A DNA stretch of 64,000 nt. It comes from Kiloniellales bacterium. GTDB taxonomy: Bacteria; Pseudomonadota; Alphaproteobacteria; Kiloniellales; JAKSBE01. Below the pieces are notes generated by a model, which did not search any database, was not told where the DNA came from, and saw only the letters and a list, made by a program, of their open reading frames with translations. Positions 42,363-57,806 of the stretch are shown piece after piece (within the stretch, counting starts at the first letter, position 1; every line of letters starts with the position of its first letter). The stretch is from the NCBI GenBank assembly GCA_030066685.1, contig JASJBF010000026.1, positions 1 to 64,000 of the forward strand. The letters are read 5' to 3'. A program made the position numbers and the translations under genes.

Positions 42363-43637
42363 TCAGCGGCGCTGGTGCTGGCGTCGTCGGGCGGCGGGGA
42401 CCAGGGGTGCTGTCTGCGGCGCGAGCGGTTTGGCCGTGGGCTCCGGCTTGGCTGCATCGGCGACCGGCTCGCCGGCCTGGATCGGCGCCGGCGCGACCTG
42501 AAGGCGCGGCGGCTGCGGCCGGGCGCGGTGCCAGGGCGCCGACTTGAAGAAGCCGACGGTGTAGGCCACCGCGATCAGCAGGGCGAAGCCGACCAGGTGG
42601 ACGACCAGGAAGTCCAGCGGGTCCCGGCCCATCGCGTCCAGGACCATGCCGGCGACCTGCGCCGCCACCATGGAGGTGACGAAGACCGCCAGGGCCTGCT
42701 GGCCGACCTTGACGATCGGCTTGAAGACGGCGGCCCTGAGCAGCCGCTCCCGGCCGGAGAGCAGGCAGAGCACCAGGTAGGCCAGGGCAAGGAAGTGGAC
42801 CCAGCGGAGCATGCCGAAGTCGGTCTTCTGGAAGCCCCAGAGCAGGTTGTAGCTGATGGTGTTGATGACCTCGACGTTCTTCCAGATCGGCCCGTATTTC
42901 ATCGGGATCATGGACAGCACGAAGACCAGCGCCAGGCCGATCAGCCACTTGTTGGGCGCCGGCGGCTTGATCCAGCCGGAGGCGAAGGCGAAGCCGGTGA
43001 AGAAGATCAGCTGCCAGCCGAAGGGATTGAAGAACCAGGGCCGGTCCGACCACCACTCCGCCGGCAGGCCGAAGCTGAAGGTCATGTTCACCGCCCAGAG
43101 CGCCAGGGAGAAGCCGATCGCCAGGCCGACATGAACCCGGCTCAGCGCCATCATGATCGGGATCATCATCAGCACGCCGAAATACATCGGCAGGATGTCG
43201 AAGTAGTTCGGCACGTAGGTCAGGGTCAGCAGGTGGACGATGCCGCTGGCCGGATCGTCGAAGAAGGGATGCAGGTTGAGCCGGCCGACGTAGTCCTTGA
43301 TCCCGATGAACTCGGTGCCCAGGACGACGACGCTCGCGGTCATCAGGAAGAGGCAGATGTGCGCCCAGTAGATCTGCCAGGCGCGGTAGACGATGCGCGC
43401 CGCGCCCAGGAAGAAACCCTTCTTGATGAAGATGCTGCCGAAGGCCAGGGCCGAGGCGAAGCCGGAGCAGAAGACGAAGATCTCGGTCGCGTCGGAGGGG
43501 CCGAACTTGGCCGGGATGTAGCGGCCCCAGGGATTGGCCGGGATGTGGGCGATGAAGATGATGAACATCGCCAAGCCGCGGAAGAAGTCCAGGCGGACGT
43601 CCCGCTCGCTCCTCTCGCGGCTTGGCGGGTTGCTCAT
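42363..43637 (-). CDS. opgC: OpgC protein, glucan succinyltransferase
   Basis: 424-aa membrane protein with about ten helices, of the OpgC/acyltransferase-3-like group (RDVRLDFFRGLAMFIIFIAH near the N-terminus). It adds succinyl groups to osmoregulated periplasmic glucans. ATG 43637 overlaps the opgH stop (ATGA). The cytoplasmic C-terminus is Pro/Ala-rich and basic (ARRRQHQRR). Only the start and the neighbour make the pairing clear; no opgG is present nearby. Confidence 0.88.
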   Translation of the reverse strand: MSNPPSRERSERDVRLDFFRGLAMFIIFIAHIPANPWGRYIPAKFGPSDATEIFVFCSGFASALAFGSIFIKKGFFLGAARIVYRAWQIYWAHICLFLMTASVVVLGTEFIGIKDYVGRLNLHPFFDDPASGIVHLLTLTYVPNYFDILPMYFGVLMMIPIMMALSRVHVGLAIGFSLALWAVNMTFSFGLPAEWWSDRPWFFNPFGWQLIFFTGFAFASGWIKPPAPNKWLIGLALVFVLSMIPMKYGPIWKNVEVINTISYNLLWGFQKTDFGMLRWVHFLALAYLVLCLLSGRERLLRAAVFKPIVKVGQQALAVFVTSMVAAQVAGMVLDAMGRDPLDFLVVHLVGFALLIAVAYTVGFFKSAPWHRARPQPPRLQVAPAPIQAGEPVADAAKPEPTAKPLAPQTAPLVPAARRRQHQRR

Positions 43638-45544
43638 AACCAGCGTCCGTCCGCGCTGCGCTCCTGCGCCCGCGCCAGGGCGGCGGCCTGCGCCTGCCGG
43701 TTCGGCTCGGCGACGATCGGCACCGCTTCGGCGGCCGGGCCCGCCAGGGTCGGCCGGGCCTGGCCGAAGACGATCCGCTTGCTCTGCATCAGCTCCTCGG
43801 GCATGGGGCAGAGCTGCACGCGGGCGAGCAGCCGGCCGAAATCCATGCGAGAAGTGATCAGGGCAAATGGTATCGCGAAGGTCAAGGGGATCAGAATCGG
43901 CGAGGCGAAGGGCAGCACGCTGGGCGCCGACAGGGCCAGCCCGGCGGTCCAGCCCAGGCCGCCCAGAGTCTGGGGCCAGAAGGCCGTAGCGGCCTCGCGC
44001 AGGCCGATCTGGTGGCCGACCCGGTCCTGGGCCTCCCAGGTGACGCAGCGCCCGAACACCAGTCCGATGATGAAGATGCTGTGGACCACCGCCATGATCG
44101 GGGCGATCAGCACCGAGAAGACGAACTCCACCAGGGCGCTGATCAGCAGGCGACCACTGCCGCCGTAGCTGCGGCGTTTGGCACGTTGGGCCGCGATCTC
44201 GACGATGCCCAGCAGCTTGGGCATGAAGGTCATGCCCATCATCACGACGAAGAAGGCCAGGCCCGCCCCGGCATCGATGCTGCCCCAGTACGTTCCGACC
44301 AGGGGCGCGATCTCGCCCGGGTCGGCGCCCAGGCCGAAGACGATCGCCTGGCCCAGGCTCAGGGTCAAAAAGCCCAGCCAGAACAGCGAGGAGGCGTACA
44401 TCAGGATCGCCAGGACCAGCTGCAAGCGGCCCATCGGCAGCAGGCCCGGCATCTTCAGCAGCTTGAAGTACTGCATGTTGCCCTGGCACCAGCGCAGGTC
44501 GCGCTTGATGAAGTCCAGGATCGTCGGCGGGTTCTCCTCGTAGCTGCCCAGCTCGGCGGGCAGGACCCGGACCTCGTAGCCGCCGCGGCGGATCATCGCC
44601 GCCTCAACCTGGTCGTGGCTCAGGATCCGGCCGCCCAACGGCGCGCGCCCGGGCAGGATCGGCAGCTCGCAGTGGGCGATGAAGGGGGCCACGCGGATGA
44701 TCGCGTTGTGCCCCCAGTAGGGGCCGTCCTCGCCCAGCCACCAGGCGCTGCCCATGGTGTAGGTCCGCATGCCCTGGCGCATCCCGAACTGGAAGATCCG
44801 GGCGAAGGCGCTGCGCGCCGGCAGGCCGGCGATCAGGGTCTGCAGGATGCCGAGCCGGGCATTGGCCTGCATGACCCGGACCATGTGCAGGATGGTTCCG
44901 CCGGTCATGATGCTGTCGGCGTCGAGCACCACCATGAAGTCGAAGTCCGCGCCCCAGCGCTCGCAGAAGTCCCGGACGTTGCCGGCCTTCTGGCCGAGGT
45001 TGTCGCGGCGCCGTCGGTAGTGTAGGCGTCCCGGACGCGGGTCGCGGGCGGAGAGCTCGGCAAAGCGCCGCTCCTCTTCGGCGGCGATCTCCGGCTTGTT
45101 GGTGTCGCTCAGCAGGAAGAAGTCGAAGTGGCGGGCTTCGCCGGTGTCGTCCAGCGAGCCGAGGATCCGCTCGATGTGGTCGAAGACCCGGGCCGGGTCT
45201 TCGTTGTAGACCGGCATGATCAGGGCGGTCCGAGTCCGGATCGGCGCCCGGTCGTCGACCCGCGCCATGAAGGGGCTGGTCTTCTCGACGCCCCGGCCGC
45301 CCAGGGCCAGGGTCACGCCGATGACCGAGTTCCAGAAGCCGATCGCGATCCAGGGGATGGTCATGACGAAGCAGGCCAGAATCCCGGCTTCGAAGAGGTT
45401 GAGGCCATCGCCCAGGAGGATCCGGGCCATGACGAAGACCGCCGCGCCGACGGTCAGGCCGACCAGCAGGGCGAAGAGGAGGCGGCGCCGTCGGACGGTC
45501 AGGGACCAGGCACGATCGAGCGCGTCAGGCAAGGGAGCAATCAT
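43634..45544 (-). CDS. opgH: Glucans biosynthesis glucosyltransferase H
   Basis: 636-aa GT2 membrane glucosyltransferase that makes the beta-glucan backbone from UDP-glucose. Motifs: MPVYNEDPARVF, VVLDADSIMTG (DxD), GHNAIIR, and KRDLRWCQGNMQY (Q/RxxRW). Three or more helices precede and follow the catalytic domain. ATG 45544 is the likely start; an in-frame TTG three codons upstream is an alternative, and neither has a strong Shine-Dalgarno. Operon with opgC; the usual periplasmic partner OpgG is absent from the window. Confidence 0.92.
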   Translation of the reverse strand: MIAPLPDALDRAWSLTVRRRRLLFALLVGLTVGAAVFVMARILLGDGLNLFEAGILACFVMTIPWIAIGFWNSVIGVTLALGGRGVEKTSPFMARVDDRAPIRTRTALIMPVYNEDPARVFDHIERILGSLDDTGEARHFDFFLLSDTNKPEIAAEEERRFAELSARDPRPGRLHYRRRRDNLGQKAGNVRDFCERWGADFDFMVVLDADSIMTGGTILHMVRVMQANARLGILQTLIAGLPARSAFARIFQFGMRQGMRTYTMGSAWWLGEDGPYWGHNAIIRVAPFIAHCELPILPGRAPLGGRILSHDQVEAAMIRRGGYEVRVLPAELGSYEENPPTILDFIKRDLRWCQGNMQYFKLLKMPGLLPMGRLQLVLAILMYASSLFWLGFLTLSLGQAIVFGLGADPGEIAPLVGTYWGSIDAGAGLAFFVVMMGMTFMPKLLGIVEIAAQRAKRRSYGGSGRLLISALVEFVFSVLIAPIMAVVHSIFIIGLVFGRCVTWEAQDRVGHQIGLREAATAFWPQTLGGLGWTAGLALSAPSVLPFASPILIPLTFAIPFALITSRMDFGRLLARVQLCPMPEELMQSKRIVFGQARPTLAGPAAEAVPIVAEPNRQAQAAALARAQERSADGRWL

Positions 45545-46027
45545 GGCACGCAATGCAGTTCAACCAGTATCAGTTAGGAGATCCGTAGCGTCCAAACGCA
45601 CGACGCAACCAACATCATGCATTTGCACGACGGAAAAACTGGCCGTTGTGCAGCGCAACGAGAAGAAACAGTTTTGTGGCAATATTTAGCGAAGTCTTCA
45701 CGGCAGGCATCCTCCCACGGCATATCACTAATCCGTCTCCCCCGACGGGCCGAACCTGGCGACGCCGCAGGAAAAGTTCTGCGGCCCGTGATACGAGCCT
45801 TTCGCCCGGCCTCATCCCCGCCTTGTCTCGGCGGCCCCGGCTGGCCGGGCCCGAGCCCGTATCTCGCCAATCGACATAGAGCCTTTCGGGGCCCTACGCC
45901 AGGGGTGGCCACGGTTTCGTGACCATTGTTGTTCACGCCCCGAAGCGGGTCCGGGCGGCACGGAATAGACCGGGACCGCCCGGCGTTACATAAGCTACCG
46001 CCCTGACTAACACCTCAGGGGACAGAA
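45545..46027. other. Intergenic region, about 480 bp, divergent promoters
   Basis: No supported gene. It lies between the divergent opgH and the CDP-alcohol transferase fusion gene. It contains a 7-bp stem hairpin GCCGCAG/CTGCGGC at 45764-45785 and, just before the fusion gene, a small hairpin CCTGACTAACACCTCAGG whose 3' side merges into the ribosome binding site CAGGGGACAGAA. The latter could tune translation. Confidence 0.45.
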
Positions 46028-47428
46028 ATGATCCCGAGACCAAGAAGGTCCAGCCTGCCGAGCGCCCCCGCCCCCAGCGTCCTCTTGAGCTTGCTCGGCG
46101 CCACCACCCTGCTGACCGGGCTCACCGCCGGCATCGCCGCGGGCATGGACCTGGGGCTGCCCTACTACCTGACCTCGCTCTGCCTGGGGGGCCTGGTCGT
46201 GCTCGGGGTCCTGGTCGCGGCCAGCCGCTTCCTGCCCGGCGATCGCTTCGGCTGCGCCAACGGGGTCACCCTGGCGCGGGCGATGCTGATCTGTCCCCTG
46301 GCCGGGGCCTTGGTCCTGGCGGCGCTTGACGCGCGCCTGGCCTGGATCTTCTTCGTGCTCGCCCTGGTCGCCTTCCTGCTCGACGGGGTCGACGGCTGGG
46401 TCGCCCGCAGGCGCCGGGAATGCTCCCACTTCGGCGCCCGCTTCGACATGGAAACCGACGCCCTCTTCGTCCTGGTCCTGTCGCTGCTGGTCCTGAACGC
46501 CGGCAAGGCGGGCCCCTGGATCCTGCTCTCCGGACTGCTGCGCTACCTCTTCGTCCTCGCCGGCCTGGCCTGGGCGCCGCTGCGCGCGCCCCTGGCGCCC
46601 AGCTTGCGCCGCAAGGCAATCTGCGCTCTACAAGTCGGCGCTCTGGTCATATGCTTGGCACCCATCGTGCCGGCGACTTGGAGTGCCTGGCTTGCGGCAA
46701 TCGCCCTGAGCGCGCTCATCGCGTCATTCGTCCGCGATGTCTCCGGGCTGGTCCGCCGGGCTTGGGAGAGGAGGCAAGAGACCTTGACGAGAGAGTCCAG
46801 ATGGCTGGCCTTCGGCCAGCGCGCGACCTGGCTGATGCCCTGGCTGGCGGTCGTCGCCGTGCTCGGCGGCGGCCTGACTCCGGCCCCGCCGGCGCAGGCG
46901 GCGGCGGCCCGCTACGAGATCGATCCGGCCCATTTCAGCGTCGGCTTCCTGGTCCATCACATCGGCTATGCCGATACCCTGGGCATGTTCCTCGAGGGCA
47001 GCGGCAGCTTCACTTTCGACGAGACGGCGCCCGCGGTCTCCGACATCGAGGTGACGATCCAGGCCGACAGCGTCTTCACCAACCACGACCGCCGCGACAA
47101 GCACGTCAAGGGCGGCGATTTCCTCGACGTCGACGACCATCCCGAGATCCGCTTCGTCGGCCGCGAGGCCCGTCAGACCGGGGAGAACACGGGCGAGGTG
47201 ACCGGCGACCTGACCATCCTGGGCGTCACCCGGCCGGTCACCCTGCAGGTCACCAAGAACAAGATCGGCGACTACCCTTTCGGCGCCGGGCCGCCCTACG
47301 TCGTCGGGGTCTCGGTGCGCGGCACGGTGAAGCGCAGCGAGTTCGGCATGACCTACGCCGTGGAGAACGGCTGGGTCGGCGACGAGGTCGAGCTGATCAT
47401 CGAGTTCGAGGCGATCCGGCAGGACTGA
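46028..47428 (+). CDS. Fusion: CDP-alcohol phosphatidyltransferase domain + YceI lipid-binding domain
   Basis: 466-aa membrane protein. Residues about 15-240 form a CDP-alcohol phosphatidyltransferase with the exact catalytic pattern D119-x2-D122-G-x2-A126-R-x8-G136-x3-D140-x3-D144 and several helices. A hydrophobic, signal-like stretch (about 266-293, ending AQAAAA) leads into a YceI domain (295-466; RYEIDPAHFSVGFLVHHIGY, KGGDFLDVDDHPEIRF, VTGDLTILGVTRPVTLQV). YceI domains bind isoprenoid or long-chain lipids in the periplasm. The fusion suggests synthesis of a lipid with a polar head group and its capture on the outer face. It starts the gene block with methyltransferases, a GT4 and pterin-type enzymes. 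The fusion is intact, without a frameshift. Confidence 0.88.
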   Translation: MIPRPRRSSLPSAPAPSVLLSLLGATTLLTGLTAGIAAGMDLGLPYYLTSLCLGGLVVLGVLVAASRFLPGDRFGCANGVTLARAMLICPLAGALVLAALDARLAWIFFVLALVAFLLDGVDGWVARRRRECSHFGARFDMETDALFVLVLSLLVLNAGKAGPWILLSGLLRYLFVLAGLAWAPLRAPLAPSLRRKAICALQVGALVICLAPIVPATWSAWLAAIALSALIASFVRDVSGLVRRAWERRQETLTRESRWLAFGQRATWLMPWLAVVAVLGGGLTPAPPAQAAAARYEIDPAHFSVGFLVHHIGYADTLGMFLEGSGSFTFDETAPAVSDIEVTIQADSVFTNHDRRDKHVKGGDFLDVDDHPEIRFVGREARQTGENTGEVTGDLTILGVTRPVTLQVTKNKIGDYPFGAGPPYVVGVSVRGTVKRSEFGMTYAVENGWVGDEVELIIEFEAIRQD

Positions 47429-47488
47429 GCATGGTTCCGCGCCGCCGCTCCGGCCGGGGGCGCCAAGACTGGGAGGATACGACAGGTC

Positions 47489-48241
47489 ATGATCGCCCTC
47501 AGCGAGCTCCGCGGGCTCGCCCGTTCAGTCTCGATTTACTATGGGAACCCGCTGCGCAGCCGCGCGCACCGGAGCTTCTACCGGCAGTTCATCGAGCCCG
47601 GCGACCTTTGCTTCGACGTCGGGGCGCACGTCGGCAACCACGTCCGGACCATGCTCAAGCTCGGCGCCCGGGTGGTCGCGGTCGAGCCGCAGCCGCGCTT
47701 CCAGTGGCTGCTGCGCCGGCTCTACGGCGACAACCCCGAGGTCACTCTGGTCGACAAGGCTCTGGGCGCCGCGTTCGGCGAGGCCGAGCTCTACGTCAGC
47801 AGCCGCTATCCGACGGTGACCACCCTGTCGCGCGACTGGATCAAGTCGGTCGGGCGCGCCGCGTCCTTCAGCGAGGTTGCCTGGGACGGCCGGGTCACCG
47901 TCGAGGTCACCACCCTCGACAGCCTGATCGCCCGGCACGGCAGGCCCGCCTACTGCAAGATCGACGTCGAGGGCTTCGAGCCCCAGGTCCTGGAGGGCCT
48001 CTCCACCGCCTTGCCGAGCCTGTCCTTCGAGTTCATCCCGGCCGCGCTCGACGGCGCCCACGCCTGCATCGAGCGGCTGCTGGCGCTGGGCGACTACGAG
48101 TTCAACGTCTCCATGGGCGAGCAGATGCGCTTCGAGCTGCCGCAGTGGAGCGACGCCGGCGCCCTGGGCGCCTGGCTCGACAACTTGGCCATCGACGACC
48201 TCTCGGGCGACGTCTACTGCCGTCTCAAGACCCGGGACTGA
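47489..48241 (+). CDS. FkbM-family methyltransferase
   Basis: 250-aa SAM-dependent methyltransferase of the FkbM group: FDVGAHVGNHVRTML (SAM binding), VVAVEPQP, LDSLIARHGRPAYCKIDVEG and FEPQVLEGLS. These enzymes usually O-methylate sugars or polyketides. ATG 47489 follows GGGAGG at a somewhat long distance. It lies 60 bp after the transferase-YceI fusion and 6 bp before the dehydrogenase gene, so it is co-transcribed. Confidence 0.88.
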   Translation: MIALSELRGLARSVSIYYGNPLRSRAHRSFYRQFIEPGDLCFDVGAHVGNHVRTMLKLGARVVAVEPQPRFQWLLRRLYGDNPEVTLVDKALGAAFGEAELYVSSRYPTVTTLSRDWIKSVGRAASFSEVAWDGRVTVEVTTLDSLIARHGRPAYCKIDVEGFEPQVLEGLSTALPSLSFEFIPAALDGAHACIERLLALGDYEFNVSMGEQMRFELPQWSDAGALGAWLDNLAIDDLSGDVYCRLKTRD

Positions 48242-48247
48242 GCCGCC

Positions 48248-49237
48248 GTGACGCCAAGTGCGCCAGGGCCCGCCGAGGCCTTCTGGATCACCGGCGCGCT
48301 AACCGGCGAGATCCGCGCGGCCGGGCTGCCGCCGCCCGGCGACGGCGAGGTCCTGGTCCGGACGCTCTACAGCGGGATCAGCCGCGGCACCGAATGCCTG
48401 GTCTTCGGCGGCGGCGTCCCGGCCAGCCAGTATCGGGCCATGCGCGCGCCCTTCCAGGAGGGCGACTTCCCCTGGCCGGTCAAGTACGGCTACGCCAGTG
48501 TCGGCCTGGTCGAGCAGGGCCCCGACGCGTTGCAGGGCCGGGAGGTCTTCTGCCTCTACCCGCACCAGACCCGCTATCTCGTCCCGGAAGCGGCCGTGCT
48601 GCCGCTGCCGCGGGGCCTGCCGGCCGGCCGGGCCGTGCTCGGCGCCAACATGGAGACCGCGCTCAACGGCCTCTGGGACGCGGCGCCGCGGCCTGGCGAC
48701 CGGATCGCGGTGATCGGCGCCGGGGTCGTCGGCTGCCTGGTCGCGCGCTTGGCGGCGCAGGTGCCGGGCTGCCGGGTCCAGCTCCTCGACATCGACCCGG
48801 ACAAGGCGGCGATCGCCGAGGCGCTCGGCCTGCCCTTCGCCCTGCCCGAGGCGGCGGAAGCCGACTGCGACCTGGTGATCCACGCCAGCGGCGCGCCCGA
48901 GGGCCTGGTCACGGCGCTGGGCCTCGCCGGCTTCGAAGCGACGGTCGTCGAACTGTCCTGGTTCGGCGACCGCGGAGTCACCCTGCCCCTCGGCGAGGCC
49001 TTCCACGCCAGGCGCCTGACCCTCAAGTCGTCCCAGGTCGGCCAGGTAGCGTCGGCCCGGCGGGCGCGCTGGGATCACTGCCGGCGCCTGGCCAAGGCCC
49101 TGGAGCTGCTGGCCGAGCCGCGGCTCGACGCCCTGATCAGCGGCGACTCCGCGTTTCGGGCATTGCCAGAGACCCTGCGCTCGCTATACCAAGCCCCGGC
49201 CGGCGTGCTTTGTCACCGGATCACCTATGAGGACTGA
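48248..49237 (+). CDS. Medium-chain (zinc-type) alcohol dehydrogenase-like protein
   Basis: 329-aa MDR-superfamily oxidoreductase. The N-terminal GroES-like part contains [20 protein letters not shown], similar to BchC/threonine-dehydrogenase-like relatives, and the nucleotide-binding fold has [16 protein letters not shown]. The usual catalytic Cys and GHE zinc motif are absent, so it may not use zinc like classical ADHs. GTG start at 48248. It is tightly packed between the FkbM and PTPS-like genes and probably oxidises or reduces an intermediate of the proposed pathway. Confidence 0.82.
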
Positions 49238-49240
49238 GGA

Positions 49241-49639
49241 ATGTACAGCGTCTGCGTCAGAGACCATTTCATGATCGCGCACAGCTTCCGGGGCGAGGTC
49301 TTCGGACCGGCCCAGAAGCTCCACGGGGCCACCTACGTGGTCGACGTCGAGTTCCGCCGCAAGGAGCTGGACGCGGACGGCATCGTGGTCGACATCGGCC
49401 TGGCCGGCCAGGAGCTGAACAAGACGCTCGGCGCGCTCAACTTCCAGAACCTCGACGAGGTGGCGGAGTTCGAAGGCCAGAACACCACGACCGAGTTCAT
49501 GGCCCGGGTGATCTTCGACCGCTTCGCCGCCGCCATCGCCCGCGGCGACCTGGGCCCCAACGCCTCCGGGCTCACCGCGCTCAAGGTCACCCTGCACGAG
49601 TCCCACGTGGCCTGGGCGGCCTACGAGGGCGCGCTCTAG
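49241..49639 (+). CDS. 6-pyruvoyl-tetrahydropterin synthase/QueD-like protein with altered active site
   Basis: 132-aa T-fold protein clearly related to PTPS/QueD: FMIAHSF (His14), [30 protein letters not shown], and TLHES (Glu120). Of the three zinc histidines, the third is replaced: the normal HGH is HGA (His28-Gly-Ala30). The usual catalytic Cys before it is absent (GPAQK), and the catalytic His of the LDHxxLD motif is Phe68 (LNFQNLD). It therefore cannot work like canonical PTPS. It could be a different lyase/cyclase, or a binding protein for a GTP-derived pterin. Three bp after the dehydrogenase gene. Confidence 0.85.
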
Positions 49640-49660
49640 GCCGGCGGGCCGCGGCGCAAG

Positions 49661-50722
49661 GTGGCGAGGCTCCATTTCGTCCTGCCCGGCGATCCGGCGA
49701 CCCGGACCGGCGGCTTCATCTACGACGCCCGGATCATCGAGGGCCTGCGGGCGCGCGGGATCGAGGTCGCCGTGCACAGCCTGCCCGACGGCTTCCCCGC
49801 GCCCTCGCCGGCGGTCCGGGCGCAGGCGGCGGCGCTCTTCGCCGCCTTGCCCGACGGCGCCCGGGTCGTGGTCGACGGCTTGGCCCTCGGCGTCCTGCCC
49901 GGAGAACTGGCGCCCGAGGCCGGCAGGCTCGAGCTGATCGGCCTGGTCCACCATCCCCTGGCCGCCGAGAGCGGCCTGTCGCCGGAGCGGCGGCAGGCGC
50001 TCTTCGACTCCGAGACGGCGGCGCTGGCGCTGGTCTCGCAGGTCGTCACCACCAGCCGCCACACCGCCGAGGCCCTGGCGCCCTACGGCGTGCCTGCGGA
50101 GCGGATCACCCCGGTGCCGCCCGGGGTCGAGCCGGCGCCCCTGGCCGCCGGCTCGGCCGACGGGACGCTGGCCCTGCTCTGCGTCGCCAACCTGGTGCCC
50201 CGCAAGGGCCACGACCTCCTCCTCGGCGCACTGGCCAGGCTTGAGCACCTGGACTGGCGCCTGACCTGCGGCGGCAGCCCGGCGCGCGATCCGGACTGGA
50301 GCGAGCGCCTGCGCCGCCTCTGCGCCGAGAACGGCCTCGACGACCGTGTGGCCTTTGTGGGCGAAATCGACGACTCCCGGCTGGAAGACCTCTATCATGG
50401 GGCCGATCTTTTCGTGCTGGCCTCCCACTACGAGGGCTACGGCATGGTCTTTCCCGAGGCGGTCGCCCACGGCATTCCGGTGCTCGCGACCCGGACCGGC
50501 GGGATCCCCGAGGCGGCGCCCGCCGAGGCCTCGATCCTGGTGCCGCCTGGCGATCTCGACGCCCTGACCGCGGCCCTGCGGCGCCTGCTCGCCGAGCCGG
50601 CCGCCTACGCCGAGCTGCGCGCCGCGGCGCGCGGCGCGCGCGCGGGCCTGCGGCGCTGGTCGGACAGCGCCGCGCTCTTCGCCGCTGCGCTCGGCTACGG
50701 CGCGGAGGGGGCGGGGCGGTGA
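49661..50722 (+). CDS. Family-4 glycosyltransferase
   Basis: 353-aa GT-B retaining glycosyltransferase: N-terminal acceptor domain with TRTGGFIYDARIIEGLRARG, then CVANLVPRKGHDLLLGALA and the nucleotide-sugar region SHYEGYGMVFPEAVAHGIPV (ExxxxxxxE). The start is GTG 49661, 21 bp after the PTPS-like gene. It would add a sugar to the pathway product. Overlaps the next gene by 4 bp (GTGA). Confidence 0.9.
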   Translation: MARLHFVLPGDPATRTGGFIYDARIIEGLRARGIEVAVHSLPDGFPAPSPAVRAQAAALFAALPDGARVVVDGLALGVLPGELAPEAGRLELIGLVHHPLAAESGLSPERRQALFDSETAALALVSQVVTTSRHTAEALAPYGVPAERITPVPPGVEPAPLAAGSADGTLALLCVANLVPRKGHDLLLGALARLEHLDWRLTCGGSPARDPDWSERLRRLCAENGLDDRVAFVGEIDDSRLEDLYHGADLFVLASHYEGYGMVFPEAVAHGIPVLATRTGGIPEAAPAEASILVPPGDLDALTAALRRLLAEPAAYAELRAAARGARAGLRRWSDSAALFAAALGYGAEGAGR

Positions 50723-51528
50723 GCGGCTTCTCCGCCGACTGGCTGGCGCTGCGCGAGCCGGCCGACGCCCGCGCCCGGGCCCCCGATCTGACCAAGCGAA
50801 TGGCCGCTTTCTGCGCCGGCCGGGAGCGGCTCAAGGTCCTCGACCTGGGCAGCGGGACCGGATCCAACCTCCGCTTCCTGGCGCCCCGGTTGAAGCTGGT
50901 GCAGAGCTGGACCCTGGTCGATCACGACGAGGACCTGCTGGAGCTCGCCGCCGAGGCCGGCAAGTCGCTGTCCGGAGTCGACGTGGAGTGCCGCCGGCTC
51001 GATCTGGCCAAGGACCTGGGCCGCCTGGACCTCTCCGATGTCGATCTGGTGACCGCTTCGGCGCTGATGGACCTGGTCTCGGCGGCCTGGTTCGACCGCC
51101 TGGCCGCGGCCTGCCGGGCGGCCGGCTGCGCGGTCTTCTTTGTCCTGACCTACGACGGGGTCATGGAGTGGCGGCCCTCGGACCGTCTGGACCCCCTGAT
51201 CCGCGAGCTCTTCAACCTGCATCAAGGCGAGGACAAGGGCTTCGGCCCGGCGCTCGGTCCCGAGGCCCCCAAGCACATGGCCCGGGCCCTGATCTCCAAG
51301 GGCTACCGGGTCGAGACCGGGCCCAGCGATTGGATCATCGAGGGCGGCGAGCGGGAGCTGCACCTGGCCCTGCTCGAGGGCTTCCTGGCCGCCGCCGAGG
51401 AGATCGGCCCGGCCCGCGCCGAGGAGCTCCGCGACTGGGCGGCCCGTCGCCGCCGCCTCGCGGCCCGGCCCGAGGCCCGCCTCCGGGTCGGCCACGAGGA
51501 CCTCTTCGCCTTCCCGGCCGAGAGCTGA
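50719..51528 (+). CDS. Class I SAM-dependent methyltransferase
   Basis: 269-aa methyltransferase: motif I VLDLGSGTGSNLRFLA, then TLVDHDEDLLELA and VDLVTASALMDLVSAAWF. The GTG start 50719 overlaps the glycosyltransferase stop, so the two are coupled. Last gene of the plus-strand run beginning at 46028. It would methylate the sugar or the heterocycle; the substrate is unknown. Confidence 0.88.
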   Translation: MSGFSADWLALREPADARARAPDLTKRMAAFCAGRERLKVLDLGSGTGSNLRFLAPRLKLVQSWTLVDHDEDLLELAAEAGKSLSGVDVECRRLDLAKDLGRLDLSDVDLVTASALMDLVSAAWFDRLAAACRAAGCAVFFVLTYDGVMEWRPSDRLDPLIRELFNLHQGEDKGFGPALGPEAPKHMARALISKGYRVETGPSDWIIEGGERELHLALLEGFLAAAEEIGPARAEELRDWAARRRRLAARPEARLRVGHEDLFAFPAES

Positions 51529-51540
51529 AAAGAGATATGC

Positions 51541-51742
51541 CCCTCACCCTCCCACAGCGAGAGGGATGTGAAGGCTTGGCGAGGCGGTCAGCCGAGCCCT
51601 AGAGCACGATGATATGAGGTTGAAGCAACCTCATATCTGAATCGTGCTCTAAACTGTTGAAGTAGAGCGGGATTCAGACATGAAGCCGGATTGGCTTAAT
51701 GTCATCCCGCTCTAGCCGGAGCTGGGTGAGGGGACCTCTCCC
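51541..51742. repeat. Dispersed repeat interrupted by the 117-bp element (filled site)
   Basis: The left part ends GCCGAGCC and the right part starts CCGGAGCTGGGTGAGGGG. Joined together at one CTAG they reproduce the uninterrupted repeat at 55082-55151. The interruption is exactly the 117-bp element with a second CTAG. The right part also encodes the C-terminal residues and stop codon of the RibD-like gene. Confidence 0.88.
51599..51715 (+). mobile_element. 117-bp CTAG-bounded double-hairpin element, copy 3 (nested insertion)
   Basis: CTAG at 51599-51602 and 51712-51715 bound a sequence identical to the copy at 31750 except for one base in the linker (TTGAAG for TTAAAG). Comparison with the empty site at 55121-55124 shows that it entered a CTAG and left CTAG on both sides. 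Its right CTAG gives the TAG stop of the minus-strand RibD-like gene. Confidence 0.93.
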
Positions 51743-52644
51743 CGCAGGTCGAAGTCGAAGAGCACGTCCTCGCCCATCTCGAAGCGGCGGCAGGGCGGGC
51801 GCCGCGCCTCGGCCAGTCTGCCGACCGGCGGCAGGGTGAAGGCCGGGCGCCCGGAGCCGATGATCAGCGGCGCGACCGCGACCTGCAGCCGGTCCAGCAC
51901 CCCGGCGGCGAGGAAGCGCGAGACCGTGACCCCGCCGCCTTCCACGAAGAGGCTGTGCAGGCCCTCGGCGCGCAGCGCGGCGACGATCGCGGCCGGCGGG
52001 ATCTGCATGTCCTCGGCCTCGATCTCCAGGCTCCGGACGGGCGCGGGCAACGGCGTCGTTCCGGCGCCGGCACGGCTGACCAGGAGAGTCGGCGCCGCGC
52101 CGTCGGTGAAGACCTTGTAGCGCGCCTCTAGGCGACGCTCGGTGTCGATCACCACGCGCACCGGGTTCTCTCCCGGTGCCCGGCGCGTGGTCAGCTGCGG
52201 ATCGTCGTGCTTGACCGTCCCCGCGCCGACGATCACCGCATCGCTCAGCGCCCGCAGGCGGTGCAGGTGGAGGATGTTTGCCGCGCCGGTGACGTAATAG
52301 GAATCACCGCCCTCGGTCGCGATGCGGCCGTCCAGGCTCTGGCCCAGGTGGGCCAGGGTCAGGGGTCGGCTCTCCGAGCCCAGCGCCACCGGCAAGTAAA
52401 GGTCGAAGAGTTGTCCAACCTCCTGAGAAAGCTCGACGAAGCAGCGCCAGCCGCCATCGCGGTTGACCGCGAGCAGCGCGTCTGCTTCGGTTGCGGCCAC
52501 GAAGCCGGGCGACCCGCTCGGGTCGCTGCGCAAGCCGAGGCCGTCGAAAGGAAAGCCGTCACTGCGAACCCTTTGCCGGACCGCGAGGATCAGCTGCCAC
52601 GCCTCCTCGGGAACAATTTCCTTGTTTTGTTGTTCATGAGGCAA
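51712..52644 (-). CDS. Stand-alone RibD reductase-domain protein
   Basis: 310-aa protein. From about residue 93 to the end it is a RibD C-terminal (dihydrofolate-reductase-like) domain: PLTLAHLGQSLDGRIATEGG, DAVIVGAGTVKHDDPQLTTR and LHSLFVEGGGVTVSRFL. The deaminase domain of bifunctional RibD is missing; the first ~90 residues match nothing I recognise. It would reduce the ribosyl chain of a GTP-cyclohydrolase II product with NADPH. TTG 52644 is the likely start (TTGGAG 9 nt upstream; no in-frame ATG nearby). The C-terminal EVPSPSSG and stop are encoded by inserted repeat DNA. Divergent from the GTP cyclohydrolase II gene with 92 bp between. Confidence 0.85.
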   Translation of the reverse strand: MPHEQQNKEIVPEEAWQLILAVRQRVRSDGFPFDGLGLRSDPSGSPGFVAATEADALLAVNRDGGWRCFVELSQEVGQLFDLYLPVALGSESRPLTLAHLGQSLDGRIATEGGDSYYVTGAANILHLHRLRALSDAVIVGAGTVKHDDPQLTTRRAPGENPVRVVIDTERRLEARYKVFTDGAAPTLLVSRAGAGTTPLPAPVRSLEIEAEDMQIPPAAIVAALRAEGLHSLFVEGGGVTVSRFLAAGVLDRLQVAVAPLIIGSGRPAFTLPPVGRLAEARRPPCRRFEMGEDVLFDFDLRGEVPSPSSG

Positions 52645-52736
52645 GGCAGGACTCCAAGATCTCAGGCCAAAAAAGCCACAGGTCTGTAAGACTTTTGTCC
52701 CTTGTTCAAGATCTGAAGCAAACTAACATCAGAGCC
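52645..52736. promoter_or_regulatory. Short divergent promoter region between RibD-like and GTP cyclohydrolase II genes
   Basis: 92 bp of relatively AT-rich DNA shared by two divergent genes. The octamer CAAGATCT occurs twice as a direct repeat (52654-52661 and 52708-52715), each containing the AGATCT palindrome, about five helical turns apart. This is a plausible binding site for a common regulator; no clear promoter hexamers. Confidence 0.4.
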
Positions 52737-53927
52737 GTGCGAGCAAACAAAGAGTCTTTCCTACCCAGCATTCAATCGACCCAAAAGCAGTCTGAAGCGG
52801 ACTTTACGTCGATCATCGGAGATACCGAGACGGTCTTCGTCGATCGGACGCTGGCGGAACTGCGATGCGGACGAGTGGTGCGACTGAGCGGCGGACAGCG
52901 ATCCTGGCTGATCGTGGCCCTGGAGTGCTGTCCCGCCCGGACCCTGGAGGAGCTTCAACGCCTCTCCGCGGGGCAGCTCGAGCTGATCCTCAGCGCCGAG
53001 CGGGCCGAGGCCCTGGGGCTGGACCCTGGCACGGACGGCGCCGTGGCCCTGCGCCTACCGCCGGGCTGGAGTCGCGAGTGGCTGCATCAGCTGGTCGCGA
53101 CGCCCGTGGATCCGGACCGGCAGCCGGCCGAGGCCCGGGGGCTGGACACCCTGGCCGCCTCGAGCGGCGCCCGGACCGCCTTGACCATGGTCAAGCTGGC
53201 CCACCTCGTGCCCGCGGTGCTGGTCTGGGAGCTGCGCGGCGCCGCGGCGACCGAGGTCAGCAAGCAGGTCGCCCTGGGCGAAATCCTCATGGTCACACTG
53301 CCCCAGGTCCAGGCCTACGTCGAGGCGACGGCGACCAAGCTGCTCCGCGTCGGCGAGGCCAAGGTGCCGCTGAGCGACAGCGAGGACACCCGCTTCGTCA
53401 TCTTCCGGGCCGCGAGCAGCGGCATCGATCACGTCGCGATCGTCATCGGCCAGATCGACACCGGGACCCCGGTGCTGGTCCGGCTCCATTCGGCCTGCCT
53501 GACCGGCGACCTTTTCGGCAGCCTGCGCTGCGACTGCGGCGAGCAGCTGCGGACCTCGGTCCAGGCCATCGCCGAGGCCGGCGGCGGGATCATCCTCTAC
53601 CTGGCCCAGGAAGGCCGCGGCATCGGCCTGACCAACAAGCTGCGCGCCTACTGGCTCCAGGACCGGGGCTTCGACACCCTGGACGCCAACAACCAGCTCG
53701 GCTTTAAGGACGACGAGCGCCGCTACGAGGTCGCCGCCGAGATCCTCAAGCTGCTCGACATCGAGCGGGTCACGCTGATGACCAACAACCCGGCCAAGAT
53801 CAACGCCCTGGAAAGCGCGGGCATCGCGATCGAAAGCCGCAAGGGCGTCCCGGCGACGATCAACCCGCACAACGAGCGCTACATGACGGTGCGCGCGGAA
53901 AAGATCGGCCACATCCTGGACGAGTAG
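52737..53927 (+). CDS. ribA: GTP cyclohydrolase II with degenerate N-terminal domain
   Basis: 396 aa from GTG 52737 (weak ribosome binding site; a TTG at 52695 is an alternative). The C-terminal ~200 residues are a complete GTP cyclohydrolase II: zinc site CLTGDLFGSLRCDCGEQL, catalytic region AQEGRGIGLTNKLRAYWLQD and ANNQLGFKDDERRYEVAAEI. It opens GTP to 2,5-diamino-6-ribosylamino-4(3H)-pyrimidinone 5'-phosphate, releasing formate and pyrophosphate. The N-terminal ~190 residues resemble a degenerate RibB-like domain without its active-site motif. Its position next to a RibD reductase, PTPS-like protein and modifying enzymes suggests a specialised pathway copy rather than the housekeeping riboflavin enzyme. 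Confidence 0.88.
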   Translation: MRANKESFLPSIQSTQKQSEADFTSIIGDTETVFVDRTLAELRCGRVVRLSGGQRSWLIVALECCPARTLEELQRLSAGQLELILSAERAEALGLDPGTDGAVALRLPPGWSREWLHQLVATPVDPDRQPAEARGLDTLAASSGARTALTMVKLAHLVPAVLVWELRGAAATEVSKQVALGEILMVTLPQVQAYVEATATKLLRVGEAKVPLSDSEDTRFVIFRAASSGIDHVAIVIGQIDTGTPVLVRLHSACLTGDLFGSLRCDCGEQLRTSVQAIAEAGGGIILYLAQEGRGIGLTNKLRAYWLQDRGFDTLDANNQLGFKDDERRYEVAAEILKLLDIERVTLMTNNPAKINALESAGIAIESRKGVPATINPHNERYMTVRAEKIGHILDE

Positions 53928-54045
53928 CTGCGTGGCGGGAGCCGCTTTCCCGACATCGGAGATCCATGCTCACACGTCCCCGCCGAGGGAAAGGGTGAGC
54001 GCGGTCGCCGATCACCCGCGTGAAGCGCGCTTCGCTGGCGCGCTC

Positions 54046-54110
54046 ATGCTTCGAGAAGCTCAGCATGAGGGTGCCCTTTAACTCGCCCTGAGCTTGCCTA
54101 AAGGGGAGGT
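54046..54110. repeat. Dispersed intergenic repeat remnant
   Basis: CATGCTTCGAGAAGCTCAGC followed by a CGCCCTGAGCTTGCCTAAAG block, related to the repeat at 27387. It lies between the convergent GTP cyclohydrolase II and creatininase-family genes. Confidence 0.5.
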
Positions 54111-54160
54111 CGGCTCCGCTTGAAGTGCGGCGCTCGAATTCATGTGTTCGCTGGTTAGGG

Positions 54161-54964
54161 TCAGTCCCGCTCCTTGAGCAGGGACAGCGGCGCGCGCCTG
54201 AGGTCGCGCAGGACCGCGACCAGGCGCTCGGCGGCGTGGTCGAGGAGCTGCCGGCCCTTTTCCGGGTCGGCCTGGGAGGCGTCGCCGGCGGCGCCCGAGG
54301 GGTGCAGGTCCTGGCTCGCCCAGGCGAAGCCGGCAGGGCCTTCGGGCCGCAGGATCTCGTAGTCGCCTTCCATGTCGAGGGAGAGCGGCCGGAAGTCCGC
54401 CGCCCGCTCCTTGCGGACCAGCTCGGGGTGTAGTGCCAGCATCATCGAGGTCTCGACCGCCCCGCCGTGGATCCCGTGGGCCAGCTCCTCGGCTCCGAAG
54501 ATCCCCTCCGGCGTGCCGAAGTGGAAGTAGGTCGCGCGCACCACCAGCATGCCGAAGTCCATGCGCAGGCGCTGGGCGACGATGTCGACGACCTGGGTCT
54601 GGCCGCCGTGGCTGTTGAAGATCACCAGCTTGCGCAGCCCGGCGCGGGCGACCGAGGCGCCGATCTCGGTCCAGAGCCCGATCAGCAGCTCGGCCGGCAG
54701 CGACAGGGTGCCGGGAAAGTCGCCGTGCTCCTCGCTGTCGCCGACCGGCAGGGTCGGCAGGACCAGAAGCGTCAAGTCCTCCGGGACCCGCGCCAGGGCC
54801 CGGTCGACGATGCCGCGGTTGATCGCGGTGTCGGTCGCAAGCGGCAGGTGCGGGCCGTGCTGCTCGGTCGCGCCGACCGGCAGCACAGCGATCACCGCCT
54901 CCGGATCGACCGTCTCCAGATCGGTCGTGGCGAGGTCTTCCCAATAGCCGCTATTCAGGCCCAT
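54161..54964 (-). CDS. Creatininase-family amidohydrolase
   Basis: 267-aa creatininase-superfamily protein with the metal motif GATEQHGPHLPLATD (Glu34, His36, His39, Asp45), EEHGDFPGT, FNSHGGQTQVVD and the HGGAVETSMML segment. ATG 54964 is taken as start; the open frame upstream has no family resemblance. The family includes creatininase, MftE and the archaeal ArfB formamide hydrolase that acts on a GTP-derived pyrimidine. With GTP cyclohydrolase II as convergent neighbour, a role on a related pyrimidine amide is possible, but general amidohydrolase is the safe call. Confidence 0.87.
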   Translation of the reverse strand: MGLNSGYWEDLATTDLETVDPEAVIAVLPVGATEQHGPHLPLATDTAINRGIVDRALARVPEDLTLLVLPTLPVGDSEEHGDFPGTLSLPAELLIGLWTEIGASVARAGLRKLVIFNSHGGQTQVVDIVAQRLRMDFGMLVVRATYFHFGTPEGIFGAEELAHGIHGGAVETSMMLALHPELVRKERAADFRPLSLDMEGDYEILRPEGPAGFAWASQDLHPSGAAGDASQADPEKGRQLLDHAAERLVAVLRDLRRAPLSLLKERD

Positions 54965-55169: not shown

Positions 55170-56594
55170 CTAACTTCGCCCGTAGTCGTCCGCGATGCGT
55201 TCGATGTCGTCTTCCTCCAGGTAGCTGCCGCACTGCACCTCGATGACGTGCAGCGGCGCCGCACCCGGGTTGCGCAGGCGGTGCAGGCTGCCCTGGGGGA
55301 TGAAGGTCGACTGGCCGGCCGCCAGGGCGAAGACCTCCTCGCCGCGGGTGACCTCGGCGCGGCCGCGAACCACCACCCAGTGCTCGCTGCGGTGGCGGTG
55401 GCGCTGCAGCGAGATTCTGGCCCCGGGCTTCAGCATCAGGTGCTTGGACTGGAAGCCTTCGCCCTTCTGCAGGCTGGTGAAGCTGCCCCAGGGCCGCTGC
55501 ACCGTGTTCGCCCGGCCGTGTTCGGAGCGGCCCTCGGCGGCCAGGCGTTCGGCGATGCCACGGACCTCCTGGGCGCGGTCGCGCGGGCAGACCAGGACCG
55601 CGTCCTCCTGGACCACGACCACCAGGTCGCGCAGCCCGACGGCCACCAGCAGCGCCGCGTCGCTGCGCAGGTAGGAACCATGGCTGTCCTCAACCAGAAC
55701 CTCGCCGAGCAGGACGTTGCCGTCGGCGTCCTGCGCCGAGGCCCGCCAGAGCGACTCCCAGGAGCCGACGTCGCTCCAGCCCATGTCGACCGGGACCACC
55801 CCGGCGCGCTCGGTTTTCTCCATCAGGGCGTAGTCGATCGAGATCCGGGGTGCGGTCGCAAAGGCGGCCGCCTCGAGGCGGGTGAAGTCGAGGTCCGGGG
55901 TCGCGCCCTCGACCGCGGCGCGGGCCGCTTGCAGCACCTCCGGCGCCCGGGCTTCCAGTTCGGCGAGCAGGCCGGCCCGAGAGAAAAGGAAGATGCCGCT
56001 GTTCCATAAGTGCCGGCCGCCGGCGAGATAGGCCTCGGCGGTTGCCCGGTCCGGCTTCTCGACGAAGCGGGCGATCCGCCGGCAGCCGGCCAGGTCGGGC
56101 AGGGCCTCGCCCCGCTCGATGTAGCCGTAGCCGGTCTCCGGATGGTCCGGCGTCACGCCGAAGGTCATCAGCCAGCCGGCCGCGGCCGCCGGGGCGGCGG
56201 CGTCGACCGCCGCCAGGAAGCGCTCGGGCTTTTCGATCACGTGGTCGGAGGGCAGGACCAGCAGCAGCTCGCCCGGATCCGCCACGGCGGCCAGGGCCGC
56301 GGCGGCGATGGCCGGAGCGGTGTTGCGCCCGGCCGGCTCCAGGATCAGCGCCGCGGCCGGGCGACCGGCGGCGCGCAGCTGCTCGGCGGCCAGGAAGCGC
56401 TGGGCCTCGTTGCAGACCACGATCGGCGGGGCGAAGCGCGCCGGGTCGCCGACCCGCTCCAGGGTCTTGCGGAACAGGCTGGTCCCGCCCAGCAGATCGG
56501 CGAAGGGCTTGCCGGCCGTGGCGCGCGAGACCGGCCAGAGGCGGCTGCCGATTCCGCCACAGAGGATGACTGGCTGAATGGGGGCTTGGGTCAC
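55170..56594 (-). CDS. manC: Mannose-1-phosphate guanylyltransferase / mannose-6-phosphate isomerase
   Basis: 474-aa type-II bifunctional enzyme making GDP-mannose. The N-terminal nucleotidyltransferase has PVILCGGIGSRLWPVSR, VLPSDHVIEKPERF and FVEKPDRATAE. The C-terminal cupin isomerase begins at RPWGSFTSLQKGEGFQ and has HRHRSEHWVVVRG and FIPQGSLHRLRNPG. GTG 56594 gives the usual length; the 20 in-frame upstream codons are not conserved-looking. It feeds exopolysaccharide or glycosylation, perhaps including the GT4 in the neighbouring block. Confidence 0.93.
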   Translation of the reverse strand: MTQAPIQPVILCGGIGSRLWPVSRATAGKPFADLLGGTSLFRKTLERVGDPARFAPPIVVCNEAQRFLAAEQLRAAGRPAAALILEPAGRNTAPAIAAAALAAVADPGELLLVLPSDHVIEKPERFLAAVDAAAPAAAAGWLMTFGVTPDHPETGYGYIERGEALPDLAGCRRIARFVEKPDRATAEAYLAGGRHLWNSGIFLFSRAGLLAELEARAPEVLQAARAAVEGATPDLDFTRLEAAAFATAPRISIDYALMEKTERAGVVPVDMGWSDVGSWESLWRASAQDADGNVLLGEVLVEDSHGSYLRSDAALLVAVGLRDLVVVVQEDAVLVCPRDRAQEVRGIAERLAAEGRSEHGRANTVQRPWGSFTSLQKGEGFQSKHLMLKPGARISLQRHRHRSEHWVVVRGRAEVTRGEEVFALAAGQSTFIPQGSLHRLRNPGAAPLHVIEVQCGSYLEEDDIERIADDYGRS

Positions 56595-56821
56595 GCTGTC
56601 CGGAGGCTCTGGGATGGCTCCGCGGATTAGACAGGATCGGCCCCGAGCCGGCAATTCCCTTGCCGCGTCGAAGGGCGGGGCAAGGCTGTGCCTTTCCTGG
56701 GGCAGGGTGCCGACGCAGCGGGCGGATTTCGCGCCTCGATCCCGATCTAGGGGATGCCGGACGCGGCAACCGGGAGTATAGAGTCCGCCTCGACGCCTTT
56801 CTCACGCCACGGGGAGACCCC

Positions 56822-57781: not shown

Positions 57782-57806
57782 GCCAAACGAGAGGAGACGG
57801 ACCGCC

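Follow-up and report, generated by a model that had tools for sequence, protein, structure and literature searches.

A conserved gene cluster for the probable conversion of GTP to a methylated, glycosylated and probably lipid-linked pterin-like compound

We analyzed a stretch of 64,000 nucleotides from a Kiloniellales bacterium (contig JASJBF010000026.1 of assembly GCA_030066685.1, positions 1 to 64,000; hereafter the window), in which a gene cluster at 46028-54964 combines a GTP cyclohydrolase II and a stand-alone RibD reductase domain with a PTPS-IV protein, a dehydrogenase, methyltransferases, a glycosyltransferase and a CDP-alcohol transferase. Its product is most likely a pterin-like compound made from GTP, with methyl, sugar and probably lipid parts. 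That the cluster encodes a dedicated pathway, which begins with GTP and passes through a diaminopyrimidine, is highly probable, and to the whole five-step proposal set out below, for a dedicated pathway of wide but patchy distribution, we assign a probability of roughly 0.55.

Results

Gene content and layout

Family calls were made by Pfam and NCBIfam profile searches, in which ten window proteins were scanned. The cluster and its divergent neighbor comprise the following genes, with the basis of each call in brackets:

46028..47428, + strand: CDP-alcohol phosphatidyltransferase fused to YceI, 466 aa, transferase at residues 76-225 and YceI at 296-462 (Pfam)
47489..48241, + strand: FkbM-family methyltransferase, accessory (Pfam)
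48248..49237, + strand: medium-chain dehydrogenase/reductase (MDR), polyol-dehydrogenase-like fold, core (sub-threshold profiles, predicted fold)
49241..49639, + strand: PTPS-IV of the T-fold family, ortholog of Streptomyces coelicolor SCO6650, core (Pfam PTPS, FGPAQ signature)
49661..50722, + strand: GT4 glycosyltransferase (Pfam and NCBIfam)
50719..51528, + strand: class I S-adenosylmethionine methyltransferase, core (Pfam, structure model)
51712..52644, - strand: stand-alone RibD_C reductase without deaminase (Pfam and NCBIfam)
52695..53927, + strand, start TTG 52695 or GTG 52737: GTP cyclohydrolase II with a degenerate RibB-like N-terminus (Pfam and NCBIfam)
54161..54964, - strand: creatininase-family protein, probable formylaminopyrimidine (AFRPP) deformylase (Pfam PF02633)
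43634..45553, - strand: OpgH/MdoH glucosyltransferase, divergent neighbor and possible associate (family match)

The open reading frames between 46028 and 51528 are separated by gaps of 60, 6, 3 and 21 bp, followed by a 4-bp overlap. The RibD_C gene (TTG start at 52644) and the cyclohydrolase gene are divergent and share a short upstream region, and the likely start of the creatininase gene is the ATG at 54964. An earlier, sequence-only reading of this DNA had given the same gene set, strands, gaps and overlap, all of which we recovered from the open reading frames and the Pfam and NCBIfam searches, the MDR only by sub-threshold profiles and its predicted fold; the reading's description of a RibD reductase lacking a deaminase also held, since Pfam found no deaminase domain in the RibD_C protein.

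The gene set recurs across phyla

The locus sample consisted of the best 80 of 558 MDR relatives from a protein scan with the MDR, so that the presence of this gene is given by selection and close relatives are favored; many of the loci end at contig ends, and the 51 loci of at least 20.8 kb were hence also counted separately. PTPS was present in 76/80 loci (51/51 long loci), GT4 in 74/80 (50/51), the class I methyltransferase in 69/80 (49/51), RibD_C in 66/80 (46/51), the CDP-alcohol transferase in 63/80 (45/51), GTP cyclohydrolase II in 46/80 (34/51), a flippase-like LPG_synthase_TM protein in 45/80 (37/51) and creatininase in 35/80 (29/51), followed by YceI (19/80 and 12/51), the FkbM methyltransferase (15/80 and 7/51) and cytochrome b561 (4/80 and 4/51). 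These loci came from alpha-, beta- and gammaproteobacteria, from actinobacteria, and from metagenome-assembled genomes titled Acidobacteria, Gemmatimonadota and Polyangiaceae; by record title they include Kiloniellales, Inquilinus, Bradyrhizobium and Rhizobium among the alphaproteobacteria, together with Salinicola, Kushneria, Marinobacter, Lentzea, Saccharothrix and Actinoplanes. In Lentzea, Saccharothrix and their relatives the gene order is rearranged while the set is retained. Minimal sets were found in Rhodobacteraceae SC52 (MDR-PTPS-methyltransferase-RibD, locus L110) and in Halobellus (MDR-PTPS-methyltransferase, locus L114), which suggests that methylation belongs to the core and that glycosylation and lipid attachment form an outer layer. 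Clustering of the unassigned open reading frames in the loci returned chiefly opposite-strand and genus-level matches and, besides these, sulfatase-like and MdoH families.

We also surveyed 290 genomes drawn evenly from the class, counting a PTPS match above 100 bits as positive, and found PTPS-IV in 39 of them. For comparison, 29 genomes were used that are not a random sample (20 listed non-matching genomes and nine of the ten weakly matching ones, with 221 non-matching genomes left out). The MDR (E at most 1e-30) was detected in 39/39 PTPS-IV genomes versus 0/29 comparison genomes, and in 37/39 it lies within 3 kb of PTPS, the exceptions being one genome with the MDR in two pieces 6-7 kb from PTPS (G281) and one with the MDR on a different contig (G052). 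In 32/39 PTPS-IV genomes RibD_C is no more than 6 kb away from PTPS, and a second RibD_C copy of at least 100 bits was present in 36/39 of them versus 0/29 comparison genomes. In a 1.6 Mb genome the only RibD_C match is the copy near PTPS-IV (G146:C3), so this genome may lack a housekeeping RibD.

The recurrence of the set across phyla, together with the co-occurrence of MDR and RibD_C with PTPS-IV, rules out a chance neighborhood. It supports the earlier proposal that the genes form one functional unit; the finding that was to refute that proposal, a lack of co-occurrence in other genomes, is contradicted by both the 80 loci and the 290-genome survey.

The probable entry enzymes are separate from riboflavin synthesis

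The window cyclohydrolase scored above the cut-off of the GTP cyclohydrolase II profile (TIGR00505, 215.8 bits, cut-off 205.85) and keeps the three Cys and the equivalent of Tyr105 (E. coli numbering), and no RibB domain was found in it by the Pfam scan. The RibD_C protein reached 128.1 bits against a cut-off of 24.1 for its domain, but only 105.2 bits against the profile of bifunctional RibD (TIGR00326, cut-off 156.35).

The source genome (5.96 Mb in 73 contigs, estimated 100% complete) contains three GTP cyclohydrolase II and two RibD_C domains. Its riboflavin operon is on another contig, C4, which carries an nrdR-like gene, a deaminase-containing ribD, ribE (Lum_binding), a ribBA-like gene whose RibB part was recognized by eye, and the only lumazine synthase match in the genome. 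The window cyclohydrolase is 23% identical to the C4 ribBA and 48% identical to a third copy, which lies apart from both the cluster and the riboflavin operon (G000:C10:49283-49774). Three GTP cyclohydrolase I matches were on other contigs. The separate housekeeping genes for which the sequence-only reading had proposed to look are thus present, and the window ribA is neither the sole copy nor a gene of the riboflavin operon, contrary to what that reading had named as its second refutation.

These data bear on whether the cluster is a second riboflavin branch or a branch for secreted flavins. Cyclohydrolase II and RibD_C are riboflavin enzymes, and Sinorhizobium meliloti is described, in the passages concerned, as making flavins in separate branches and as possessing a formamidase of the creatininase family (PMC9478397). 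Against this, no deaminase, RibB, lumazine synthase or riboflavin synthase was found among the ten window proteins scanned, and the riboflavin genes lie elsewhere. We know of no role of the MDR, PTPS, GT4 or the methyltransferase in riboflavin synthesis. Because the riboflavin genes named above are all on contig C4, a riboflavin branch was rejected, and we consider either kind of flavin branch very unlikely.

Probable GTP ring opening and possible deformylation in haloarchaea and actinobacteria

Eighteen plasmid loci were annotated: two were identified through the MDR, and the others represent 16 of 27 plasmid records that matched PTPS. The nine haloarchaeal plasmid loci, found through MDR or PTPS similarity, contained the MDR in 9/9, a recognizable PTPS in 8/9, a CDP-alcohol transferase in 5/9 and creatininase in 1/9. 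Four of the nine, three from Haloarcula and one from Natrarchaeobaculum, encode a GTP cyclohydrolase III (272-293 bits to PF05165), which belongs to a Pfam family separate from that of cyclohydrolase II and whose gene shares 8 or 4 bp with the MDR gene. Since GTP cyclohydrolase III replaces cyclohydrolase II in these loci, the pathway very probably begins with the opening of the GTP ring.

RibD_C was found in none of the nine haloarchaeal stretches, either by searches with two bacterial queries (E 1e-4) or by annotation. Archaea reduce the diaminopyrimidine ahead of deamination, whereas bacteria deaminate first, and the NCBIfam profile of the archaeal reductase, TIGR01508, is named for the diamino compound; the distinction is not drawn in the relevant passages of PMC9478397. 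The absence of RibD_C from the haloarchaeal stretches would be expected if archaea already reduce the diamino compound, and for bacteria retention of the 2-amino group would require a reductase that stands alone. From the presence of RibD_C in bacterial loci and its absence from the haloarchaeal stretches we infer that the product is more likely pterin-like, with the 2-amino group, than lumazine- or flavin-like.

The product of GTP cyclohydrolase III is described as a formylamino intermediate, and the creatininase-family formamidase BrbF of Sinorhizobium and Brucella is described as deformylating the AFRPP intermediate (PMC9478397, in the parts concerned). The window creatininase (PF02633, 253.2 bits; 19.5 bits against the ArfB profile, cut-off 180) is a probable AFRPP deformylase, likened to BrbF/ArfB through its family profile. 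Among 45 of the 46 loci with a cyclohydrolase (L044, with two cyclohydrolase pieces, was left out), residue 105 in E. coli numbering is Tyr in 34, His in 10 and Met in one, and the eleven cyclohydrolases without Tyr105 also have His instead of Gln91. Creatininase was present in 11/11 of these loci versus 16/34 Tyr loci (Fisher 0.0014, uncorrected for relatedness; Fisher values here ignore kinship among genomes). By record title the eleven are Lentzea, Saccharothrix, Actinokineospora, Kibdelosporangium or Amycolatopsis, which we take to be one actinobacterial group. The Streptomyces plasmid locus L087 likewise combines Met at 105 with creatininase; in work on SCO6655, a Met-variant cyclohydrolase reportedly retains the formyl group. 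Since the window cyclohydrolase has Tyr105, the window creatininase may be a helper or act on another substrate.

PTPS-IV: a subgroup apart from the queuosine and biopterin enzymes, with an unlikely link to F420

The window PTPS is a full-length ortholog of SCO6650 (PDB 3d7j, 183.8 bits), whose function, to our knowledge, is unsolved. In an alignment of 76 rows, made from 75 of the 76 loci with PTPS and the window (L043, with a PTPS below 100 bits, was left out), every position of the signature FGPAQ, at window residues 21-25, is kept in 75/76 rows. In the account given by a 2017 study this signature defines PTPS-IV, a COG0720 subgroup corresponding to AGeNNT cluster 62, with PF00925 (there called FolE2) and PF01872 as neighbors and the PF00925 link described as new (PMC5445326). 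In Pfam, PF00925 is GTP_cyclohydro2 and PF01872 is RibD_C; both are present in the window, and in 34/51 and 46/51 long loci, respectively.

The motifs of PTPS-I/QueD and PTPS-II, CxxxHGH and CxxxxxHGH, are absent, and the protein reached 41.9 bits against TIGR03367 (cut-off 89.25); the queuosine and biopterin routes were rejected on these grounds. Ala24 and Ala30 replace the catalytic Cys of QueD and the last His of HGH in 75/76 rows, as read by motif. Glu120 is kept in 76/76 rows, and its equivalent anchors pterins in PTPS relatives. Seven haloarchaeal cluster PTPS (L104-L106, L111 and L113-L115) retain His-Ser-His and the first His and so may still bind zinc; His-Ser-His is missing from the bacterial ones, in which a zinc site may have been lost. 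On two Streptomyces plasmids (L088 and L107), the genes next to PTPS-IV encode MBL-fold, cupin and regulator proteins.

A passage of a 2016 review assigns PTPS-IV to coenzyme F420 from unpublished work (PMC5041015), and an F420 or other deazaflavin product was weighed accordingly. The Fo synthase CofH exceeded its cut-off in 7/39 PTPS-IV genomes, with one more partial match, and in two genomes of one genus a CofH-containing open reading frame of about 800 aa lies 9-10 kb from PTPS-IV (G209:C10 and G269:C132). Yet 31/39 PTPS-IV genomes had no CofH match above 25 bits, and there was none in the source genome, for which F420 was therefore rejected, provided that the assembly is as complete as estimated. 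Of all the products considered a deazaflavin is the least probable; the seven genomes with CofH, and its position in two of them, leave room for an accessory connection with F420 in a small number of lineages.

Modifying enzymes and membrane neighbors

The MDR matched profiles only below their cut-offs (ADH_zinc_N, 22.4 bits, cut-off 31.8; NCBIfam bchC, 44 bits). In structural comparison of its predicted model (mean pLDDT 89), polyol dehydrogenases ranked first: 4oh1 (gutB; Z 30.1, root-mean-square deviation 2.8, 297 aligned residues), L-idonate and xylitol dehydrogenase stood near the top, with classical alcohol dehydrogenases at Z 28.1-28.6. Arg46 and Tyr82, invariant in 26 bacterial rows, occupy the usual Cys/His places, matched by eye, that we take to be those of the catalytic zinc ligands. 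The model would fit a polyol-dehydrogenase-type MDR acting on the ribityl chain, with the assignment holding at class level and the fold alone not establishing the substrate. The class I methyltransferase model (pLDDT 96.5) matched 3mgg best (Z 20.2), followed by N-, O-, S- and C-methyltransferases at Z 16-18, which again places it at class level.

The residues of DxxDGxxARx8GxxxDxxxD, which we take to be the catalytic motif of CDP-alcohol phosphatidyltransferases, are invariant in 25 rows. The fusion of the transferase to YceI also occurs in loci L006, L007 and L069, and it joins genes already associated, since YceI is a same-strand neighbor of the transferase, within 200 bp from hit to hit, in 11 further loci. 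The additional membrane genes of the relatives encode flippase-like and sulfatase-like proteins and a separate YceI beside the CDP-alcohol transferase. In 25/80 loci sulfatase-like genes are no more than 3 kb from the cluster, and their products could modify a lipid head group outside the cell. Examples are L076 6261-7964, L090 5516-7141 and L030 6518-8149, all weak matches to Pfam Sulfatase.

Alternatively, the product could be a soluble, secreted pteridine glycoside, either a methylated pterin or a methylated diaminopyrimidine, with the CDP-alcohol transferase making a small-alcohol phosphodiester or serving otherwise. The cores L110 and L114, with neither this enzyme nor GT4, would agree with such a product, but the transferase is present in 45/51 and GT4 in 50/51 long loci, and the flippase-like, YceI and sulfatase-like neighbors point to the membrane; we regard a soluble glycoside as unlikely, if the most serious competitor to a lipid-linked compound.

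There is a smaller chance that the adjacent OpgH makes periplasmic glucans whose substituents are donated by the head group of the lipid. An MdoH homolog lies within 3 kb of the cluster in 15/80 loci, and MdoH and OpgC adjoin the source cluster, whereas 65/80 loci, including every actinobacterial one, have no MdoH within 3 kb; we think such a role improbable. In the window, OpgC acyltransferase-like and MdoH/OpgH genes occupy 42363-45553 on the - strand.

Beyond the creatininase gene, 55170-59033 encodes ManC, epimerase-like and Kbl/BioF-like proteins, a trio found within 3 kb of the cluster solely in the nearest relatives, L006 and L007. A FAD-binding monooxygenase-like protein (40760-42199, - strand) and a PilJ-domain protein (59335-60300, + strand) have no apparent relation to the cluster.

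Discussion

We propose a pathway of five steps. In the source genome, GTP would first be opened by cyclohydrolase II to 2,5-diamino-6-ribosylamino-pyrimidinone 5'-phosphate, while elsewhere a variant cyclohydrolase or the archaeal GTP cyclohydrolase III would act together with a creatininase-family deformylase. The stand-alone RibD_C would then reduce the ribose with no prior deamination, giving a 2-amino ribityl compound that is not made in normal bacterial riboflavin synthesis. In the third step the polyol-dehydrogenase-like MDR would oxidize the side chain, and PTPS-IV would bind the ring and process it, in the simplest case to a pterin; if the oxidation took place at C2', the compound would reach an oxidation level equal to that of the GTP cyclohydrolase I route. 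The class I enzyme would methylate the product and GT4 would glycosylate it, and finally the CDP-alcohol transferase would join the compound to a phospholipid. In relatives, the lipid, once exported, may be acted on by YceI, by the flippase-like protein and, in some of them, by cytochrome b561 or a sulfatase-like enzyme; it could be a redox compound of the membrane or a surface compound.

The first step is well supported by the genomic data and the second moderately so; the third to fifth, comprising ring closure, the order of modification, the lipid link, export and a redox role, are inferred. The pathway of the sequence-only reading stands in so far as it is GTP-derived and separate from riboflavin, and its modification order, pterin ring and lipid link belong to the third to fifth steps.

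Several observations weigh against the proposal. The catalytic Cys and one of the zinc His residues are missing from PTPS-IV, which may or may not carry out ring chemistry, so that ring closure is only one option. Seven of the 39 PTPS-IV genomes have no RibD_C within 6 kb of PTPS, and cyclohydrolase II is near PTPS in just 15/39 (within 6 kb) or 17/39 (within 15 kb), counts that were computed in part and otherwise checked by eye for a common contig, and for which draft assemblies and contig ends are partly responsible. The CDP-alcohol transferase and GT4 are missing from some loci (L110 and L114), and lipid attachment is therefore not universal; searched against solved structures, the transferase profile gave weak best matches, of choline type. 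The window has no flippase-like match and likewise no sulfatase- or cytochrome-b561-like match. The correlation of creatininase with non-Tyr105 cyclohydrolases comes from a single actinobacterial group, and on two Streptomyces plasmids (L088, 12001-12423; L107, 12001-12396) PTPS-IV stands alone, with no other cluster gene within 12 kb.

The claim that no characterised system has this gene set needs qualification, since the neighborhood is partly known: PTPS-IV has been described with PF00925 and PF01872 (PMC5445326, in the part concerned), and SCO6650 has a structure, 3d7j. That account names the two neighbors, which together with FGPAQ are common to the window, and gives no pathway there; relative to it, the MDR, methyltransferase, GT4, CDP-alcohol transferase, flippase, creatininase and archaeal GTP cyclohydrolase III are new as neighbors. 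Riboflavin synthesis shares the entry enzymes GTP cyclohydrolase II and the RibD reductase domain, but the cluster lacks the deaminase, RibB, RibH and RibE, and its product would keep the 2-amino group. The route through GTP cyclohydrolase III/ArfB and the creatininase-type BrbF resembles the cluster in leading from GTP to a formylamino intermediate that is then deformylated; it is linked to riboflavin in the passages describing it (PMC9478397), whereas here these enzymes are linked to the MDR, PTPS-IV and modifying enzymes. The GTP cyclohydrolase I routes to folate, biopterin and queuosine have in common a pterin-type ring and a PTPS relative, but differ in their entry cyclohydrolase and in the CxxxHGH and CxxxxxHGH motifs that PTPS-IV lacks. 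No known product for this pathway was found in the openly licensed literature.

More tentatively, with chances that we judge clearly below even, the cluster may define a new class of membrane-anchored pterin or pterin-like glycolipids, made from GTP without GTP cyclohydrolase I in bacteria and haloarchaea; together with cytochrome b561 and YceI, such a glycolipid might act as a redox carrier bound to lipid. If the proposed pathway is correct, it would constitute a new route from GTP to a pterin-type compound and probably a new lipid class, would assign a role to SCO6650, an orphan protein of solved structure, and would account for RibD_C proteins that stand alone and for additional GTP cyclohydrolases resembling riboflavin enzymes, in a pathway present in 39/290 genomes of the class, in other phyla and in haloarchaea.

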